A stretch of 64,000 nucleotides of DNA, from contig PDRJ01000037.1 in the NCBI GenBank assembly GCA_002748065.1, positions 1 to 64,000 on the forward strand, in the 5' to 3' direction. Both the position numbers and the translations under genes were made by a program. Within the stretch, counting starts at the first letter, position 1; every line of letters begins with the position of its first letter. Below are positions 253 to 63,890 of the stretch, piece by piece. The notes beneath the pieces are model-generated. The model saw nothing but the letters and a program-made list of their open reading frames with translations, was not told the origin of the DNA and searched no databases. The stretch comes from Bacteroidota bacterium. Lineage in GTDB: Bacteria > Bacteroidota > Bacteroidia > Bacteroidales > BM520.

Positions 253-256
253 TATT

Positions 257-411
257 TAGTGTCTGTCCATAAAGTCAGCGTTTTGAGAAGAGGCTGTCTA
301 GAAAGTTCGAATTCGAGGCTTGCGAAGGCTGAAATAGGGGAGTTTACTGGGGTAAATGACCATTTGGAAGAGAAGCGTAACGAAGAAGTCGGACTTTATA
401 GACGGACTCTA
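257..411 (+). repeat. MITE-like element, copy A (155 bp, TIRs TAGTGTCTGTCCATAAAGTC / GACTTTATAGACGGACTCTA)
   Basis: Direct alignment by eye with 5170..5323 and with the reverse complement of 22485..22639; imperfect terminal inverted repeats. Confidence 0.85.
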
Positions 412-489
412 TGTAGTATGCACCCCATAATGATGAACCACTAAAAAAGTAGGCAGATAAAACTCTTATGACGGTAAAAAGAGACACCA

Positions 490-604
490 CATGATCGCGT
501 CGGAAGACCGAAGTTGGAGGTTGAACGACAATTTTTACGAACTTTGCCGTTTAACCAAGCCAAAGGCTAACCGTTAAACCCCCAAGGCTACAAGATATAA
601 ACAG
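490..604 (+). repeat. Composite noncoding module (GAAGACCGAAGTTGGA...GCCAAAGGCTAAC...AAGGCTACAAGATATAAACAG) leading directly into the NlpC/P60 gene
   Basis: Shares segments and order with the reverse complement of 32275..32380 and with 52190..52300 and 52550..52660. Confidence 0.65.
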
Positions 605-1378
605 ATGAGATATGGAATAATTATGGTCGGAGCCGCTGCACAACGAGCAATGCCCGACCATCGCTCGGAGATGGTGAACCAACTCTTGTTTGGCGAAGTT
701 GTTGCGATGAAGACGATGGAGGGGGAGTGGATGAAGGTAGTTTCCTTTCCCGACCATTACCAAGGATATGTGATGAAGGCACATGTCCTGGAGGTGGGGG
801 AGGAGGATCCTGACGTTATTTTGCGCTGCTGTACGGCACATACCTCCGGTCATGCCACGGCCTTTTGTGTGGATGCTTCTCTCAGCCCCATAAGCCTCCC
901 CATAGGGGCTCGTCTCCATAACTGCACGGATGGCCTCTTCTCCCTGTTGGGGCATCAATGGCGCTTGTCGGGGGACTTCTTACTCCGGGACGGAGCCCAT
1001 TCCCGGGATCAGTTGGTGGCGTTTGCCCAACGTTTTCTGAATGTGCCCTATTTGTGGGGCGGGAAAACCGAGTGGGGCATGGATTGCAGCGGATTTGTAC
1101 AGGTGGTTTATCGCGTGTTTGGCCGGGAACTTCCCCGGGATGCCTGGCAACAAGCGGCCGTGGGTGTGGAGGTGCACCATCTGGAGGAGGTCCTGCCGGG
1201 CGACCTGGTTTTCTTCGGAAAAAAAGATGAGAAACCCTCCCATGTGGGGATTGTGCTGAAAAAGGGAGCGGTTATTCACTGCTCAGAAAAGGTGAAAATC
1301 GATCCATTGGATGCCCATGGTATCCTAAGCGGGACAACCTATACGCATGAGTTGAGGCGCATCCGAAGGCCGTTATAA
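605..1378 (+). CDS. NlpC/P60 family cell-wall peptidase with N-terminal SH3-like domains
   Basis: C-terminal PYLWGGKTEWGMDCSGFVQVVYRVFGRELPRDAWQQ...GDLVFFGKKDEKPSHVGIVL, the NlpC/P60 Cys-His catalytic signature. Confidence 0.88.
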   Translation: MRYGIIMVGAAAQRAMPDHRSEMVNQLLFGEVVAMKTMEGEWMKVVSFPDHYQGYVMKAHVLEVGEEDPDVILRCCTAHTSGHATAFCVDASLSPISLPIGARLHNCTDGLFSLLGHQWRLSGDFLLRDGAHSRDQLVAFAQRFLNVPYLWGGKTEWGMDCSGFVQVVYRVFGRELPRDAWQQAAVGVEVHHLEEVLPGDLVFFGKKDEKPSHVGIVLKKGAVIHCSEKVKIDPLDAHGILSGTTYTHELRRIRRPL

Positions 1379-1658
1379 TTCATAAAAACTTAACTTGTTG
1401 AAGCGTGTTTCCGTTGCTCTTCATTGTACCTTCGTGCCGGCTTTCTTCGGGAGAGTAATCGTGACGGTTGCAAAAGAAGAGAGGGAATAAGAAGGAGAAT
1501 AAAGTTAACAACTTTATTTAATTTATTGATAGATAATATTTTACTTGATAATAACTTTTGTGCTTAAGCGGTAGTTAATTTGGGGAATGTTTCTATCTTT
1601 AAAGTCTTTTTGTGGGATGTCGTATGAATCACTTTTAATAATCTATACCAACTAACTA

Positions 1659-4600
1659 ATGCTTATGAGAAATTTTAACAAAGTTTTCGTAACGATCGTG
1701 GCTTTAATGATGCTTTCGATCGGGTCATTTGCACAGATGACCACTTCCGGAATGAATGGTCGTGTAACAGGATCGGATGGATCCCTTCCCGGTGCTACCG
1801 TGGTGGCGATCCATGAACCTACCGGAACACAGTATGGAACTATTACTGACGATAATGGTTTCTATCGTATCCAGAACATGAATGTTGGGGGACCCTATAC
1901 CCTCAAGGTGACTTTTGTGGGATACCAGGAGTATCAAACTCAAGATCTCTATTTGAAATTGGGTCAAATGAAAAAGCAAAATGTCGTACTTGCGGAAAAG
2001 GCAGCTCAACTTGATGTGGTTGAGGTCGTTGGTAAATCCGGCGGAATCATTGACGGTAACCGTACCGGTGCAGAGCAAGTGGTGAATGCCCGGGAGATCT
2101 CCAAACTCCCCTCCATCAACCGTGATATCTTTGACTTTGCCCGGATGACTCCCCAGGCAAGCAGAAACGATGCCGGTGCCCTCTCCATTGCGGGGATGAA
2201 CAACCGCTACAACAGCATCATGGTGGATGGTACCGTAAACAACGACGCCTTTGGTTTGGCCGCTAACGGTCAAAATGGAGGACAGACCGGTGGTACACCT
2301 TTCTCCATTGATGTGATTGACCAGCTCCAAATTGTCCTTGCTCCTTACGATGTGCGCTATAATGGTTTTGCCGGCGGGGGAATCAACGCCGTGACCAAGG
2401 CTGGTACCAACAGCTTCAAAGGGACTGCTTACTATCTTTTCCGTAATGAAAGTCTGGCGGGTCTGACTCCCGTAGACGAAGAAGAAGGGGAGCAGGTAGA
2501 GAGAGAAAAACTGCCCGAATTTAACACCAACACCTACGGTGTGAGTGTGGGAGGCCCCTTGGTGAAGAATAAATTGTTCTTCTTCCTGAATGCAGAAATC
2601 CAACGTGACCAAACCCCCAGTCCCTTCGATTTTGCTAACTATCAAGGGAATTCAGACCGCGCTAAGATCACCGAACTGGAGAACTTTGTGAAGAATGAGT
2701 ATAATTACGATATGGGAGGCTTTGAGAATAATACGAGAGAACTGGAGGGTAATAAATTCTTCTGTCGTGTTGACTGGAATATTAACAAGGTGCATAAGTT
2801 GATGGCTCGTCATAGCTATACGAAGAACAGTGCCTTTAATCCAAGCCGTTCCAGCAATCGTAGTCTTAAGTACTACAATAATGGGGTGTTCTTCCCCAGT
2901 ACGACCAATACTTCGGCCATAGAGTTGAAGAGCAACTGGGATAATAAATCCAATAACCTGGCTCTCAGCTTCACCGCTGTCCGTGATGATAGGGATCCTC
3001 TTGGAGACCCCTTCCCCTCTGTACGGATTTATGATGGAGGTGGAACCATCTTTTTTGGTTCTGAACCCTATTCTACGGCCAATGAGTTGAGACAGGATAT
3101 CTTCAATCTTACTGATAACCTGTCGCTCTATCTCGGTTCTCATACGATAACCGTAGGAGCTAATTTCGAGTATCAGTCGGTTTACAACCTCTTCATGCGT
3201 AAGAACTTCGGGGAGTACCGTTTTGCCAGTATAGATGATTTTCTGAACAAAGCATCAGCTATTCAGTATGAGAGAGGATACTCCTTAGTAGATAATGTGA
3301 TTGGCGATGGTTCTGCTGCTGCTGCCGAGTTCTCCACTATGCAAGTGGGTGTTTATGGCCAGGATGAATGGCAGATTAACGATAATTTTAAGGTAACCGC
3401 CGGTTTGCGTTTGGATGTGCCCATGTTCCCTGAAAAATCGTTGAATGACGATCAGGCAAAACAGTTGGAAGAGAGTACGTTTGAAACCATCAAGGCTGCA
3501 TGGGGTAACGATGACCGTGTGGATCTCGAAAATCTCCAGTTTGGAAAGATGCCGACAGCTCAGCTGATGGTGAACCCCCGTTTAGGTTTTAACTGGGATG
3601 TGGATGGAGACCAAAGTACTCAACTCCGTGGAGGTACTGGTATCTTCACCTCTCGTCTGCCTCTCGTATGGCCCGGTGGTGCCTATACCAACAATGGCTT
3701 CACTATTGGTGGGGTCTATTACAAGTCAAAGTGGGGGCAGGATATTATCTTTTCACCGGATGTTGAGGCTCAATACGATAATGCTCACTTCGGTCAAGAT
3801 GATCCTGTGCCAAGCGGACAGATTGACGTCTTTGCTTCCGATTTCAAATTCCCCCAGGTGTGGCGATCTAACTTTGCCATCGACCAAAAGCTTCCTTGGA
3901 ACATGATCGGTACTCTTGAATTGCTCTATACTAAGACCCTGAATAACGTAAATTACTATAACCTAAACATTGCTCCCAATGAGGAGTTTCTGTTGACCGG
4001 GAAAGATAATCGTCCCTATTACAGCGACGAGAAGTTGGATGACCGTCTCACTCGTGTAATGTATGGAACTAACACCAATGAGGGCTATGCTTATAACCTG
4101 ACTGCTCAACTCCAGAAGCCTTTTGACAATGGCTTTACAGCCAACGTGGCTTATACCTATGGTCGTTCCATGGTGCTCAATGACGGAACCTCTTCTCAGA
4201 ACTCGTCTCAGTGGAGATACATGGAGACTGTAAATGGTCTGAATAACCTGGATCTTAGCTATTCCGATTTTGATCTTGGACATCGTGTTCTTGCATTCCT
4301 CTCTTATCGTATCGATTATGCAGGCCACATGGCTTCTACATTTAGCCTTGTTTATAACGGCCAGTCCGGTTCACGCTTTAGCTATGTCTACAATGACCGT
4401 GGAAACCTCAACGGTGAAGGTGAAAACTCAGGAAACCTGATCTTTATTCCCGAAACCGCTGATGATATTGTGCTTGTTGATTCTGAGGATGCAACGGCTG
4501 CTCAGCAGTGGGAAGCCCTCAACAGCTTTATTGAGAGTGACTCTTACCTTGCCGAGAATCGCGGTAAATACGCTGAGAGAAATGGTGCCCGTGCTCCCTT

Positions 4601-4913
4601 TACCCATATCCTTGATTTCCGTTTTGTTCAGGACTTCTATATCAAGGCCGGTGGTAAAAAGCACGATCTTCAACTTACCCTTGATATCTTCAACTTTACC
4701 AACCTGTTGAATAAAAACTGGGGACGCCGTTACTATGTGGCTTATAACTCCTATCGACTGGTTGATTTCGAGGGAATGGATGCCGATGGTACTACGCCCA
4801 CTTTCCAATATACAGGTCCTGAAAGCCGCGACGACATCTTCAATATTGATGATAGTGGTTTATCAAGTTCTCGTTGGCAAGGTCAAATTGGGGTAAGGTA
4901 TATCTTCAACTAG
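1659..4913 (+). CDS. TonB-dependent receptor, Oar-like, with N-terminal carboxypeptidase-regulatory-like domain
   Basis: 1084 aa; signal peptide, GRVTGSDGSLPGATVVAIHEPTG...GYQEYQTQDL, plug-like region and C-terminal GQIGVRYIFN. Confidence 0.88.
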   Translation: MLMRNFNKVFVTIVALMMLSIGSFAQMTTSGMNGRVTGSDGSLPGATVVAIHEPTGTQYGTITDDNGFYRIQNMNVGGPYTLKVTFVGYQEYQTQDLYLKLGQMKKQNVVLAEKAAQLDVVEVVGKSGGIIDGNRTGAEQVVNAREISKLPSINRDIFDFARMTPQASRNDAGALSIAGMNNRYNSIMVDGTVNNDAFGLAANGQNGGQTGGTPFSIDVIDQLQIVLAPYDVRYNGFAGGGINAVTKAGTNSFKGTAYYLFRNESLAGLTPVDEEEGEQVEREKLPEFNTNTYGVSVGGPLVKNKLFFFLNAEIQRDQTPSPFDFANYQGNSDRAKITELENFVKNEYNYDMGGFENNTRELEGNKFFCRVDWNINKVHKLMARHSYTKNSAFNPSRSSNRSLKYYNNGVFFPSTTNTSAIELKSNWDNKSNNLALSFTAVRDDRDPLGDPFPSVRIYDGGGTIFFGSEPYSTANELRQDIFNLTDNLSLYLGSHTITVGANFEYQSVYNLFMRKNFGEYRFASIDDFLNKASAIQYERGYSLVDNVIGDGSAAAAEFSTMQVGVYGQDEWQINDNFKVTAGLRLDVPMFPEKSLNDDQAKQLEESTFETIKAAWGNDDRVDLENLQFGKMPTAQLMVNPRLGFNWDVDGDQSTQLRGGTGIFTSRLPLVWPGGAYTNNGFTIGGVYYKSKWGQDIIFSPDVEAQYDNAHFGQDDPVPSGQIDVFASDFKFPQVWRSNFAIDQKLPWNMIGTLELLYTKTLNNVNYYNLNIAPNEEFLLTGKDNRPYYSDEKLDDRLTRVMYGTNTNEGYAYNLTAQLQKPFDNGFTANVAYTYGRSMVLNDGTSSQNSSQWRYMETVNGLNNLDLSYSDFDLGHRVLAFLSYRIDYAGHMASTFSLVYNGQSGSRFSYVYNDRGNLNGEGENSGNLIFIPETADDIVLVDSEDATAAQQWEALNSFIESDSYLAENRGKYAERNGARAPFTHILDFRFVQDFYIKAGGKKHDLQLTLDIFNFTNLLNKNWGRRYYVAYNSYRLVDFEGMDADGTTPTFQYTGPESRDDIFNIDDSGLSSSRWQGQIGVRYIFN

Positions 4914-4968
4914 TATTTATGAGAACCTATAAAAAATAGAGTCCGATGTGATATCGGCTCTGACAAAA

Positions 4969-5010
4969 AGAGAGGCTGTCCGAAACATCAGATGGCCTCT
5001 CTCTCTTTTC
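4969..5010 (+). terminator. Rho-independent terminator after the TonB receptor gene
   Basis: agagaggc ... gcctctct stem followed by a pyrimidine/T-rich tract. Confidence 0.65.
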
Positions 5011-5169
5011 CGGAATTTTCTGATCAGGGGAAGAAAGTGCTGACAGCACAAGGGCGTTATCCCCAAAGGATGGTGAAAGGGTAACCCGTTACCATTTTAT
5101 CTGCAGGTTTATCCATCATCACATCGGTGTCAAATTGAGAAGGTGTTAGCCTTTCAATGTGTGTCTATG

Positions 5170-5323
5170 TAGTGCCTGTCCATAAAGTCAGCGTTTTGAG
5201 AAGAGGCTGTCCAGAACGGTTGGATTCGAGGCTTGCGAAGGCCGAAATAGGTGAGTTTACCAAAGTAAATGACCCTCTGGAAACAAGCATAACGAAGCAG
5301 TCAGACTTTATAGACGGACTCTA
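5170..5323 (+). repeat. MITE-like element, copy B
   Basis: Near-identical in layout to copy A (257..411) including both TIRs. Confidence 0.85.
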
Positions 5324-5383
5324 TTTATAGCTATGGGCATTTCATCTTCTGTGAATGTTCATTAAAGCTTCAACGAGGGGGGA

Positions 5384-7813: not shown

Positions 7814-8148
7814 CTCGTTTATGGGTTTGATTAAAGGGTGTAAAATTGATCATTTTTTTTATGGTGCCTAAAGGCATTTCGCCAAAGTTACAAACTATCT
7901 TGACAACTCAAAGATGCTTAATACTGCTTCTTTTTTGTTAAACATACATAACAATGCTGAATGGTCACGTAAACAGCTCTCCTTCCTATGCCTAAAAAGA
8001 ATGAGACACACAACAGCATGGCGATAGGGGGGGGAGGTCGAAAGACCGAAGTCGGCCTCTATGGACGGATTCTAAATAGGTGCCTCCCTGAAATCTATTA
8101 TTTTATCCTAATTTTGTATGGCTAAATGAATGGGGAGCCGTTAAAAAA

Positions 8149-14311: not shown

Positions 14312-14376
14312 GTGTCATTTTTTTGAACTCGTTTGGGTGGTGAAAGGTTAAACTCGGTCTTTATAGACAGACGCTA
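14312..14376 (-). repeat. Short degenerate MITE-family remnant with a recognisable TIR end (…GGTCTTTATAGACAGACGCTA)
   Basis: Right end matches the family TIR; its terminal TAG (reverse strand) coincides with the stop codon of the EamA gene. Confidence 0.6.
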
Positions 14377-15243: not shown

Positions 15244-15322
15244 AGGCGTTGGAGTTTAGTTGTTAGGGTAGTGAGAAAACCTGACTTCCAATGCACAGAG
15301 GAGTATCGTTCTTCTAAAGTTC

Positions 15323-15598
15323 TTATGGACAGACACTAAATAGCATCTCTTTGACTTGGATATGTGCTATGGCATGGAGTGCCTGGATTAGGTTCTCGCG
15401 CTCCTGTTGGCTTCCCACCAGCTCGATGAGGAGAAGACCGCCGGATCCGCAACACGCTTCTGGTGAGATATCGTGTAGCCCGATGCGGGTTCGGATGCTA
15501 CAACCGTAGCTGGTCAGGAGTTTTTGCACCTGTTGTGCCTCGTTTTTGCGATTCCCGATAAAGATTCCAAGAATTTGTATGGTTTCCATATTAACCAA
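15323..15598 (-). CDS. TM1266-like iron-only hydrogenase system regulator (copy 1)
   Basis: Small ACT-like protein IQILGIFIGNRKNEAQQVQKLLTSYGCSIRTRIGLHD..., related to two other small ORFs around hydG. Confidence 0.75.
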   Translation of the reverse strand: MVNMETIQILGIFIGNRKNEAQQVQKLLTSYGCSIRTRIGLHDISPEACCGSGGLLLIELVGSQQERENLIQALHAIAHIQVKEMLFSVCP

Positions 15599-18529: not shown

Positions 18530-18652
18530 TATGGTCTCTTCCCAATGGTCATTTACCTTAGTAAACGCCCCCTTTTTCAGCCTTTGCAAGCGTTGAATTC
18601 GAACTCTCTATACAGAGGCCGCTCAAAACTCCGACTTTATGGAGAGACTCTA
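18530..18652 (-). repeat. MITE-like element, copy D (5'-truncated/degenerate)
   Basis: CAATGGTCATTTACCTTAGTAAAC...AGCCTTTGCAAGCGTTGAATTCGAA...GACTTTATGGAGAGACTCTA matches copy C in the same orientation. Confidence 0.75.
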
Positions 18653-21298: not shown

Positions 21299-22483
21299 GT
21301 GAATCAGGACTTTTATATAGAGATCTTTTGTCGACAACGAAATCACGATGGGGAGAGAATCTGTGGAGATGTTTTCTTGAAAAGGAGAATTAAGGAGGAG
21401 AATCGTACTATTATTGTCCTTTCTGATGGTATGGGACATGGCGTGAAAGCAAACCTCCTGGCAACGCTTACCGCTACAATGGCCATGAATTTCACCCAAG
21501 AGCATAAGGATATGGAGCGTACGGCAGATATCATTATGAATACCCTTCCTGTTTGTGCAGAACGAAAAATTAGCTATTCAACGTTTACAATTGTCGATAT
21601 CGCCCATGATGGAGAGGTTAAAATTCTGGAGTACGATAACCCCAGAGCCTGCCTTTTGCGGGGGGCAATTCCTTTGCCGGTGAAATGGGAAAAGATCGTG
21701 ATGGAAACGGAGAATAATAAGGGTAAAGTTTTGAGAATATGTACGTTCCATCCGAGAAAGGATGATCGTATTGTCTTCTACTCTGACGGTGTAGCCCAGT
21801 CGGGTCTTGGTATTGATCAATATCCATTTGGGTGGGGCGAAGAAGCAATCAATGATTATATCATTGAATTGGTGAAAAATAAGCCCGATATCGCTGCCTC
21901 TACCTTGGCTTCAAAGATTGTGACACGTGCACATAAAAATGATCATTATACCTCAAAAGATGATACCAGTTGTGTGGCCATCTATTTTAGAAACCCTCGG
22001 AAGTGTCTTGTGTGTACCGGCCCTCCCTATGAGAAGAAGAATGATAAAATTCTAGGCAACAGGGTGAGAGATTTTAGGGGTTTTAAGATTGTAAGTGGTG
22101 CGACAACTTCTGACATAGTGGCTCGAGAGCTTGGCGTTGAAATTACGGATAGCTTCGAGTTTGATGATCCTGATCTTCCTCCGGTATCCTTTATGGATGG
22201 AGTAGACCTGGTAACCGAGGGAATCCTGACCCTCAGTAAAGTTTCGGATATCCTTAAGTCCTATAGTAATGAAGTGCGCCTAGGGAATGGACCTGCCGAT
22301 CGGATTGTGAAGTTGTTGTTGCAGAGTGATGAAATTCACTTTATTATCGGAACACGGATTAATATTGCCCACCAAGATCCAAACCTTCCGGTAGATCTGG
22401 AGATTCGAAGAACTGTGATTAAGCGTATTGCCCGTCGTTTAGAGGACAAGTTTTTGAAAGAAGTTTTTCTGGATTACATATAA
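21299..22483 (+). CDS. SpoIIE/PP2C-family serine phosphatase with C-terminal extension
   Basis: IVLSDGMGHGVKANLLATLTATMAMNF ... IVFYSDGVAQSG ... DDTSCVAIYFRNP phosphatase motifs; GTG start; 8 nt after the HydS-like gene. Confidence 0.88.
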   Translation: MNQDFYIEIFCRQRNHDGERICGDVFLKRRIKEENRTIIVLSDGMGHGVKANLLATLTATMAMNFTQEHKDMERTADIIMNTLPVCAERKISYSTFTIVDIAHDGEVKILEYDNPRACLLRGAIPLPVKWEKIVMETENNKGKVLRICTFHPRKDDRIVFYSDGVAQSGLGIDQYPFGWGEEAINDYIIELVKNKPDIAASTLASKIVTRAHKNDHYTSKDDTSCVAIYFRNPRKCLVCTGPPYEKKNDKILGNRVRDFRGFKIVSGATTSDIVARELGVEITDSFEFDDPDLPPVSFMDGVDLVTEGILTLSKVSDILKSYSNEVRLGNGPADRIVKLLLQSDEIHFIIGTRINIAHQDPNLPVDLEIRRTVIKRIARRLEDKFLKEVFLDYI

Positions 22484-22484
22484 A

Positions 22485-22639
22485 TAGCGTCTGTCTATAA
22501 CGTCCGATTTCTTTGTGATGCTTCTCTTCCAAAGGGTCATTTACCCCAGTAAACTCACCTATTTTAGCCTTCGCAAGCCTCGAAGTCGAACGTTCTATAC
22601 GGCCTCTTCTCAAAATGCTGACTTTATGGAAAGACACTA
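22485..22639 (-). repeat. MITE-like element, copy C (155 bp)
   Basis: Reverse complement aligns along its full length with copies A and B; TIRs TAGCGTCTGTCTATAACGTC / GACTTTATGGAAAGACACTA. Confidence 0.85.
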
Positions 22640-43599: not shown

Positions 43600-43632
43600 T
43601 AGCGTCCGTTCATAAAGTCCGACTTTTTCGAC
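43600..43632. repeat. Solo MITE-family TIR (TAGCGTCCGTTCATAAAGTCCGACTTTTTCG)
   Basis: Matches the family TIR consensus but lacks the element body downstream. Confidence 0.55.
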
Positions 43633-62298: not shown

Positions 62299-63081
62299 AT
62301 GAAAAAAATTGCTATTCTTTCGGTCCTGTTTCTATTGGCCTTTTCCCTATTTGCTCAGCGTAAACCTGAGATTACCATAGAGCAGTATTACCACATTCAA
62401 AGGGGGGGCGTATGGTTTAACTCTATGGGAAGAAATTTCCACCCTATTACCATGGGTGAAAAGAAAACAGAGGCGATGGCCATATACAACTCGTTGAATG
62501 AGCCTCTTATTCTCACTTGTGACCCTCTTCCTAAAGGATTCTCCCTGAAATTTGAACACGACACGATACCGGCAAAGACAGAATCCAAGATCTTCGTGAC
62601 GTTGGATACGAAGAAATATGGAAAATATGGTCCTCAGCTTGATTATTTTTACGTAAGGTCTTCGGAGCCCAATAGGCATCCTTATCGTCTATTAATGACA
62701 CCGAACGTTCAAGAAGATTTTTCTGCTCTTACCGAGAAGGAGTTGGAGAAGGCGCCCGTGGCATCGTTTGATAAGACCGTATCTGCTTTTGATACTTTGC
62801 CGCAAATGTCAGTGCATAAGGACTCCTTTCTGTTGACGAATAAGGGGAAATCGGATCTCTATATTCGTAATGTGCGTGCCGGGTGTGGTTGTACTCATAC
62901 AAAGACTTCCCAGGATACCATTCGTCCGGGCGAGGTTGCGGAACTCTCGTTTGAATACCGAACTTTGCGTAAAAAGGGTGCTCAGGATAGTCGAATTACC
63001 ATTGTGACCAATGATCCTAAAACCCCTCAAATCACCTTGCATATCAAGGGGGAAGTGGTTATTGAAGAGGAGGAAAAGTAG
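62299..63081 (+). CDS. DUF1573 domain secreted protein
   Basis: Signal peptide; DSFLLTNKGKSDLYIRNVRAGCGCTHTKTSQDTIRPGEVAELSFEYRT. Confidence 0.85.
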   Translation: MKKIAILSVLFLLAFSLFAQRKPEITIEQYYHIQRGGVWFNSMGRNFHPITMGEKKTEAMAIYNSLNEPLILTCDPLPKGFSLKFEHDTIPAKTESKIFVTLDTKKYGKYGPQLDYFYVRSSEPNRHPYRLLMTPNVQEDFSALTEKELEKAPVASFDKTVSAFDTLPQMSVHKDSFLLTNKGKSDLYIRNVRAGCGCTHTKTSQDTIRPGEVAELSFEYRTLRKKGAQDSRITIVTNDPKTPQITLHIKGEVVIEEEEK

Positions 63082-63082
63082 G

Positions 63083-63787
63083 ATGAATATCGTGGTAAGT
63101 GGGGCAAGTAGTGGCATCGGTAGCCAAATTGCCCGAATTGCAGCGTTAGATAGTGCGAACCTGGTGGTAGCAATTGCCAGAGATGAAGCTCGGCTTGAAG
63201 CTCTTCGGAGCGTGGTGATGCATGATAATCCGGAAGCCCGGTTTTATCCGTTGTCTTTTGATCTGGCAGAGGGTGATTATAAGGATCTCTCTCATGAAAT
63301 CTTTGAGTATGCCAATAAGTTTGACCTCTTGATTAACAATGCGGGGAGCTTGATTAATAAGCCATTGTTGGAGTCCTCGGCTGAGGATTTTGACGCCATG
63401 TACAAAGTGAATAGTCGGGCGGTATACCTCCTTTCTAAAACGTTGCTTCCCCGAATGCCTAAGGGGTCGCAGATTATCAATATCAGTAGTATGGCGGGGT
63501 ATCAGGGGAGTGATAAATTTCCCGGATTAGGACTTTATGCTGCCACAAAAGGGGCCGTTGCTATTTTGACAGAAGCCATGGCTGTGGAGTGGAGCTCTTT
63601 GGGCATTACGGTGAACTGTCTTTGTCCGGGGGCTGTAAATACGGAGATGTTGAGGGAGGCCTTTCCCGGATATCAGGCCTCGGTCTCTCCGGAAGAGATG
63701 GCCAATTTTATCCTAAATTTTTCAAAATCTGCTCCCGGAGTGATGAATGGAAAGGTTGTTCCGGTAGCGTTGTCTTCGGCTAAGTAG
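63083..63787 (+). CDS. SDR-family oxidoreductase
   Basis: MNIVVSGASSGIGSQIAR...LLINNAGSL...NISSMAGYQGSDKFPGLGLYAATKGAV; start at internal Met. Confidence 0.93.
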   Translation: MNIVVSGASSGIGSQIARIAALDSANLVVAIARDEARLEALRSVVMHDNPEARFYPLSFDLAEGDYKDLSHEIFEYANKFDLLINNAGSLINKPLLESSAEDFDAMYKVNSRAVYLLSKTLLPRMPKGSQIINISSMAGYQGSDKFPGLGLYAATKGAVAILTEAMAVEWSSLGITVNCLCPGAVNTEMLREAFPGYQASVSPEEMANFILNFSKSAPGVMNGKVVPVALSSAK

Positions 63788-63890
63788 AGGCTGTCTATAA
63801 CGTCCGACTTCTTTGTGATGCTTGTCTTCCCAATGGTTATTTACCCCGGACGTTTAAAACCGTTATTACGTGCATAGAAGGCCGTTTATG
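63785..63890 (-). repeat. MITE-like element, copy E (left part; body diverged or truncated)
   Basis: TAGAGGCTGTCTATAACGTCCGACTTCTTTGTGATGCTTGTCTTCCCAATGGTTATTTACCCC matches copy C (22485..) in the same orientation. Confidence 0.7.

Follow-up and report, generated by a model that had tools for sequence, protein, structure and literature searches.

The window, a stretch of 64,000 nucleotides at the start of contig C46 of a 2.33-Mb genome assembled in 55 contigs (G000), contains a family of MITEs of ~155 bp (Table 1). The three full-length copies align end to end as the initial annotation had proposed. The degenerate copy that it placed at 18530..18652 and the partial copy at 63785..63890 also are genuine, with the profile matches delimiting the intervals in Table 1. 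The element was described as lacking a convincing gene, which is correct: the longest open reading frame over copy 1 specifies 61 aa and extends beyond the element. The 20-bp TIR pattern produced 13 matches in the window compared to 0.14 expected from shuffled sequences, and an extra third TIR-like repeat is positioned 31 bp inward of the left end of the MITE. An open reading frame at 63011-63787 stops inside the TAG of an element end (63785-63787), and a second at 21299-22483 stops 2 bp short of another element (22483-22485); stop codons may be supplied, or followed, by element ends.

Table 1. MITE copies, relics and associated features in the 64-kb window. R1 is a covariance model of the hairpin core that was seeded with two G000 sequences.
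Feature	Position	Strand	Details
Full-length copy 1	257..411	+	TIRs 257-276 and 392-411
6-mers flanking copy 1	253-258, 410-415		TATTTA (253-258), TATGTA (410-415)
ERIC-like hairpin unit within copy 1	289..409	+	Outer stem, junction GAGGCTTGCGAAG/AAGCGTAACGAAG, inner stem, apex GGAGTTTACTGGGGTAAATGA
Full-length copy 2	5170..5323	+	R1 60.6 bits
6-mers flanking copy 2	5166-5171, 5322-5327		TATGTA (5166-5171), TATTTA (5322-5327)
Weak solo TIR relic	8055..8074	-	TIR pattern, 3 mismatches
Solo TIR relic	14357..14376	-	TIR pattern, 1 mismatch
Solo TIR relic	15319..15338	-	TIR pattern, 3 mismatches
Degenerate copy without right end	18535..18651	-	Profile match, model 2-117, 90 bits
Full-length copy 3	22485..22639	-	R1 74.7 bits
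Solo right-end relic	43600..43630	-	TIR 43600-43619; TIR pattern and profile
Right-end fragment	63785..63849	-	Profile match, model 91-155, 52 bits

Copy numbers in G000 rest on searches and on sampled stretches. The genome-wide search for further copies that had been recommended was performed by BLAST and returned at least 52 matches to the 155-bp element, the best of which were 94-97% identical; the value is a lower bound as 40 of 217 first-look candidates were scored. The TIR pattern (≤3 mismatches) matched 371 times in G000 compared to six times for the reversed pattern. As each element has two ends, and as solo relics and internal repeats also contribute matches, the genome holds very roughly 180 MITEs. 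None were found in the two searched genomes of the same genus and the family therefore looks like a lineage-specific expansion or acquisition. The window element also had no match in plasmids. Within the order, numerous genomes spread over many families are enriched in the TIR, about equally on both strands and with reversed controls near zero. Two further contigs of G000, C2 (1-98) and C14 (1-98), start inside the same element at an identical point, which indicates that the assembly is interrupted at the repeat; the same effect could have removed autonomous copies from the assembly.

The outer bases of 57 near-complete copies in G000 form a 6-mer, TANNTA, on either side of the element. In 37 of these copies the two central bases agree between the left and right sides, compared to 8.8 when the right sides were shuffled (maximum 19 in 10,000). 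Among 37 elements with the same ends in 12 other genomes the 6-mer is identical on both sides in 29, the corresponding duplication statistic being 30 of 37 versus 11.9, and many copies in Marinilabilia salmonicolor possess matching 6-mers (e.g., TCATTA/TCATTA, TACTTA/TACTTA, TAAGTA/TAAGTA). Thus, the duplicated target is the 6-bp TANNTA, and the TA duplication assigned in the initial annotation corresponds to the outer part of this 6-mer. Head-to-tail tandem copies, which are frequent, have a single TANNTA in common where they meet; this arrangement would be expected from insertion of a new copy into the target duplication of a pre-existing one. A base-precise empty site was looked for by comparing two Marinilabilia genomes and none was found, the flanks having diverged: L207 and L276 are common to both genomes, L288 and L265 occur in one genome only and have no base-precise junctions in the other, and L227 and L263 gave one-sided matches only.

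Copies 1 and 2, which have the same orientation, are flanked reciprocally across positions 253-5327: the left 6-mer of each is the right 6-mer of the other. They are the only reciprocal pair among the seven copies with two different well-formed 6-mers, and the chance of this arrangement is ~0.03 per given pair. As a lead, the pattern suggests that the 4.75-kb segment between the two copies, whose genes we take from their sequence to be putative NlpC/P60-like and SusC/TonB-type genes, entered through a circle that recombined into a resident copy, or by composite transposition.

Six elements from other families resemble the window MITE both inside and at the ends. Of 393 genomes of the order, 18 contain matches to a pattern composed from the inner letters, and the reversed control gave none. 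The aligned sequences fold as one long hairpin with an outer stem of ~25 bp and an inner stem of ~10 bp in which the junction (RAGGCTTGCGAA / RAGCGTAACGAA) and the apex (GGAGTTTAC-nnnn-GTAAATGA) are constant. The initial annotation recognized the MITE, but missed this conserved interior of ~122 nt with two strongly covarying stems. In a 23-sequence alignment (A2), 89.7% of cells pair and 32 of 47 pairs are changed on both sides, yielding a covariation score of 0.469 compared to 0.15 for shuffled sequences and 0.10-0.12 when the alignment was slid by 1-3 columns. As the search pattern required the letters of junction and apex, their invariance in A2 is in part imposed, and the variable stems provide the unbiased test; these stems hold the covariation, with 31 of 35 pairs changed on both sides. 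The fold of copy 1 has a z-score of -4.8 as RNA and -4.3 as DNA, and its hairpin scores 102.7 bits with R1, a model of whose seed copy 1 is part. That the junction and apex stay constant while stems and ends change freely points to structural selection, and not to shared ancestry of the ends, as what maintains the core. The core had no match in viral contigs, literature searches with the core motif letters found nothing relevant, and Rfam scans of the window and of core-bearing loci gave no known RNA above the gathering score at the element.

The core also occurs within other termini. It is bounded by TAGTCTTTGCACGAAAACT in G280 and G192, by TAGTGCTTGTAAGAAAACCC in G334 and by TAGTGTCTATTAGAAAACTC in G250, whereas the outer arms in rumen Alistipes and Rikenellaceae MAGs are GAGAGTGAATAAAAAGATG or GAAGTTGTATAACAAGAGC, and the hairpin is present without the extra left TIR in G109, G137, G363, G317, G091, and G073. 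The R1 model detected the hairpin with E-values of 1e-7 to 1e-13 in 12 genomes of a distant family of the same phylum (f136), which we infer to be Chlorobiaceae; ends there include GGGCACCTCTATTTATT in G599. The types GAGAGTGAATAAAAAG and AGAGCCTGGTCCACCAGG also are found around the core. Conversely, TIRs of the window type enclose unrelated cores in MITEs of G053, G022, G347, and G307. Core and ends therefore are separable modules, and because the same core recurs with other terminal repeats in other bacteria, it seems capable of exchanging the transposase ends that it carries. The alternative cores in G053 (L051, L077-L080), G307 (L061-L067), and G022 (L035-L038) are palindromic and differ from that of the window, as exemplified by CCACGAATTGCACGAATTTACACG..AATTCGTGCAATTAGTGG in G053.

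The core might instead be a functional structured RNA, either an sRNA or a 3′-UTR element, that is flanked by transposon ends in some genomes. At four of eight loci from the phylum-level search a match to Rfam sX9 (RF02228) coincides with the element in register with the apex. This match covers the apex and one arm of the phylum-level copies on the opposite strand, but the best score of 32.8 is below the gathering score of 44 and neither the window nor the Bacteroidales copies matched sX9 in Rfam scans. The sX9 family appears in a list of the 20 bacterial sRNAs with the highest prevalence (PMC9029176). The top strand of the core folds more stably than the bottom strand in 22 of 23 sequences, and an orientation-dependent effect on mRNA stability via RNase E has been argued for ERIC in Yersinia (PMC2229807). 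Against a dedicated RNA, the copy number is high and dispersed, and no orientation to the upstream gene dominates (18 '<E<', 13 '>E>', 29 convergent) on the basis of crude gene calls. An asymmetry between G-U and A-C pairs was considered as a strand test and rejected: the excess (95 versus 31) is due to fixed G-U pairs and vanishes in the variable stems, where G-U (28 cells) and A-C (29 cells) are equally common (21/16 and 7/13), such that an RNA role is not favored over a DNA role. Overall, a primarily RNA identity for the core is judged unlikely.

Known since 1990-91, ERIC repeats are in wide use for typing strains. To place ERIC, the primer stretch of the ERIC-PCR literature was used; 5395 of 5426 E. 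coli genomes contain this stretch, and it holds the core apex (CAGGAGCTTACATAAGTAAGTGACTG versus CAGGAGTTTACTTTTGTAAATGACTG), with the differing stem letters constituting a compensated change. ERIC, also termed IRU or RU-1, is a 127-bp multicopy, intergenic palindrome similar in size to the MITE with TA at both ends. The apexes correspond (GGAGCTTACATAAGTAAGTGA in ERIC versus GGAGTTTACnnnnGTAAATGA in the MITE), with CAG/CTG adjacent and GAGCG after the apex, whereas the outer stem, the ends and the core junction are different. The apex motif GGAGNNTACN{4,5}GTANNTGA, which is present in ERIC and in the window core, occurs 28 times in G000, 9, 14, and 29 times in three f136 genomes, and is absent from four relatives and from reversed controls. 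By our own estimate the chance of the 14 fixed apex letters in a given 127-bp sequence is ~2e-6, a value that is a guide only as the motif was written post hoc. The R1 model located ERIC at the correct place with a weak score of 16.9 bits (E 0.0027 in 3.4 kb). The link to ERIC is strong by motif and weak by model score.

Other enterobacterial repeats connect to the core through the sX9-like copies, one of which has 80-91% identity across 45-60 bp with repeats from Escherichia, Klebsiella, Citrobacter, Salmonella, and Aeromonas. This second enterobacterial palindromic repeat, which is related to the core but distinct from ERIC, is present in 5395 of 5426 E. coli genomes in a median of five places and scores 27 bits with R1 (E ~3e-6). 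One copy is located in E. coli at L321 (469-589), and another occupies the phnC-phnD gap in Citrobacter (L322, 472-592). The apexes of the Bacteroidota core, the sX9-like repeats and ERIC conceivably are convergent, for example as binding sites for common host factors, which would agree with the weak model score of ERIC and with its different junction and outer stem. However, the 14 fixed letters occupy the right structural place beside a covarying neighbor pair, and the intermediate repeats bridge phylum-level copies and enterobacteria at the identities noted above. Convergence therefore is improbable, and the cross-phylum set of palindromic repeats that contains the core very probably includes ERIC, as a less certain member than the other repeats. 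Target duplication has been reported for ERIC; a 2007 review names no ERIC transposase and describes mobilization of such repeats as lacking experimental support (PMC2229807). The Correia/CREE repeats of Neisseria and RUP of pneumococcus likewise are high-copy, intergenic MITEs of 100-160 bp with TIRs ending in TA (PMC2229807). They differ from the window MITE in TIRs, transposase families and target rule. A core of the present kind is not known from either.

Transposases of the DDE_Tnp_1 type were searched in 12 TIR-enriched genomes of the order. At two loci a transposase gene is enclosed by MITE ends: L114 (G307, 504-2145) and L120 (G096, 500-2145). Each is ~1.64 kb with TAATTA at each end, and they derive from two other families of the order, which probably is Bacteroidales. 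The transposases are 443 aa each, 61% identical to each other, match DDE_Tnp_1, a domain of IS4/IS5-type transposases, and score 373 (372.6) and 332 bits with the NCBIfam ISNCY model NF033593 for which the cut-off is 325. A matching end also is present near further ISNCY_1 relatives at L132 (a perfect TAGTGTCTGTCCATAAAGTC), L135, L140, and L142. The L114 element interrupts a gene: excision of the IS with one TAATTA restores a continuous frame in which a Pfam DuOB match (E 2.8e-10) spans the junction and reaches the end of the profile, thereby fixing the 6-bp duplication for the IS. Thus, the search for a transposase with the same TIRs, of IS630 or other affiliation, that the initial annotation had advised identified an ISNCY-family enzyme in other genomes. 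No ISNCY transposase was detected in G000, and movement of its copies consequently would have occurred in trans; the copies may be orphans, or assembly may have dropped an IS present in several copies. An IS4-like fragment in G000 (L110) was considered as partner and was ruled out: a MITE copy has inserted into the fragment, which thus served as a target. At this site (G000:C34:1055-1386, L110/L007) the MITE lies inside the transposase fragment and the flanks, TAAATA and TATTTA, differ.

L114 and L120 have the same ends and the same 6-bp TANNTA duplication as the MITE. Unlike these ISNCY elements, the MITE lacks a transposase, and no derivation from either IS can be seen in its inner ~115 bp. 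It could be proposed that the MITEs are ordinary internal-deletion derivatives of ISNCY elements in which the palindrome is a meaningless remnant of sub-terminal repeats. The identical ends and duplication agree with this origin, as do the MITEs of G053, G022, G347, and G307, whose unrelated cores between the same TIRs show the core to be dispensable for mobilization by the ISNCY transposase. Nevertheless, the core is not visible in the full-size elements, is common to elements with entirely different ends and to other phyla, and combines covarying stems with constant loops, which renders simple internal deletion distinctly improbable: the MITE body is more than a shrunken IS. Affiliation with Tc1/mariner/IS630 and its TA duplication, proposed in the initial annotation and in keeping with the TA at both termini and with the precedent of RUP and IS630-Spn1 (PMC2229807), is very improbable indeed because the two bases between the TAs also are duplicated and the only transposase found between the ends in the DDE_Tnp_1 search of 12 genomes is of ISNCY type. 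What stands of that first reading is the MITE itself, in view of its TIRs, target duplication, many copies, absence of a gene and full-size relatives with the same ends elsewhere.

The most probable explanation, held with good confidence, is that a DDE transposase of the ISNCY family (NF033593) recognizes TAGTGTCTGTCCATAAAGTC-type ends, moves the MITEs in trans and inserts them at TANNTA with a 6-bp duplication, and that their body is a ~122-nt hairpin module with interchangeable ends belonging to the cross-phylum set that very probably includes ERIC. Directly evident from sequence are the common ends and duplication of IS and MITE, the reading frame regained at one IS insertion, the covarying core and its occurrence within different ends; movement in trans, common ancestry of the cores and any role of the core are inferred. 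In this mechanism a transposase from an IS elsewhere in the cell would bind the ends, insertion at TANNTA with a 6-bp stagger would follow, and repair would duplicate the target. Once inserted, mostly between genes, the hairpin would fold in RNA or in extruded DNA. The core may make insertions tolerable at the RNA level, or may be a DNA hairpin that serves the host or movement; by analogy with ERIC an effect on mRNA stability is plausible. ERIC has its own outer arms around a 127-bp repeat, whereas the arms of the 155-bp MITE are ISNCY-type TIRs. More tentatively, and with rather less than even confidence, ERIC, the sX9-like repeats and hundreds of Bacteroidota and Chlorobiota MITEs could form a single ancient superfamily of common descent, in which a self-preserving structured hairpin core has survived by repeatedly swapping its outer stem for the terminal repeats of resident transposases, ISNCY and others. 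The MITE is a close parallel to ERIC for which a specific transposase family, an end sequence and a 6-bp rule for the target can be named, so that its movement is directly testable. The element also provides a case of a miniature transposon with a conserved interior and changing ends, and it is suggested that a mobile repeat may underlie some of the many Rfam sX9 'sRNA' annotations.

Two individual loci are of additional note. A longer variant of the MITE at L031 (G018:C176, 1376-1607) has TACTTA flanks and interrupts a frame; the frame joined across the element gives matches to Sigma54_DBD and GIY-YIG domains, which is an unusual combination. At L170 (G109), a group II intron domain match is located near a solo hairpin (2646-2732).
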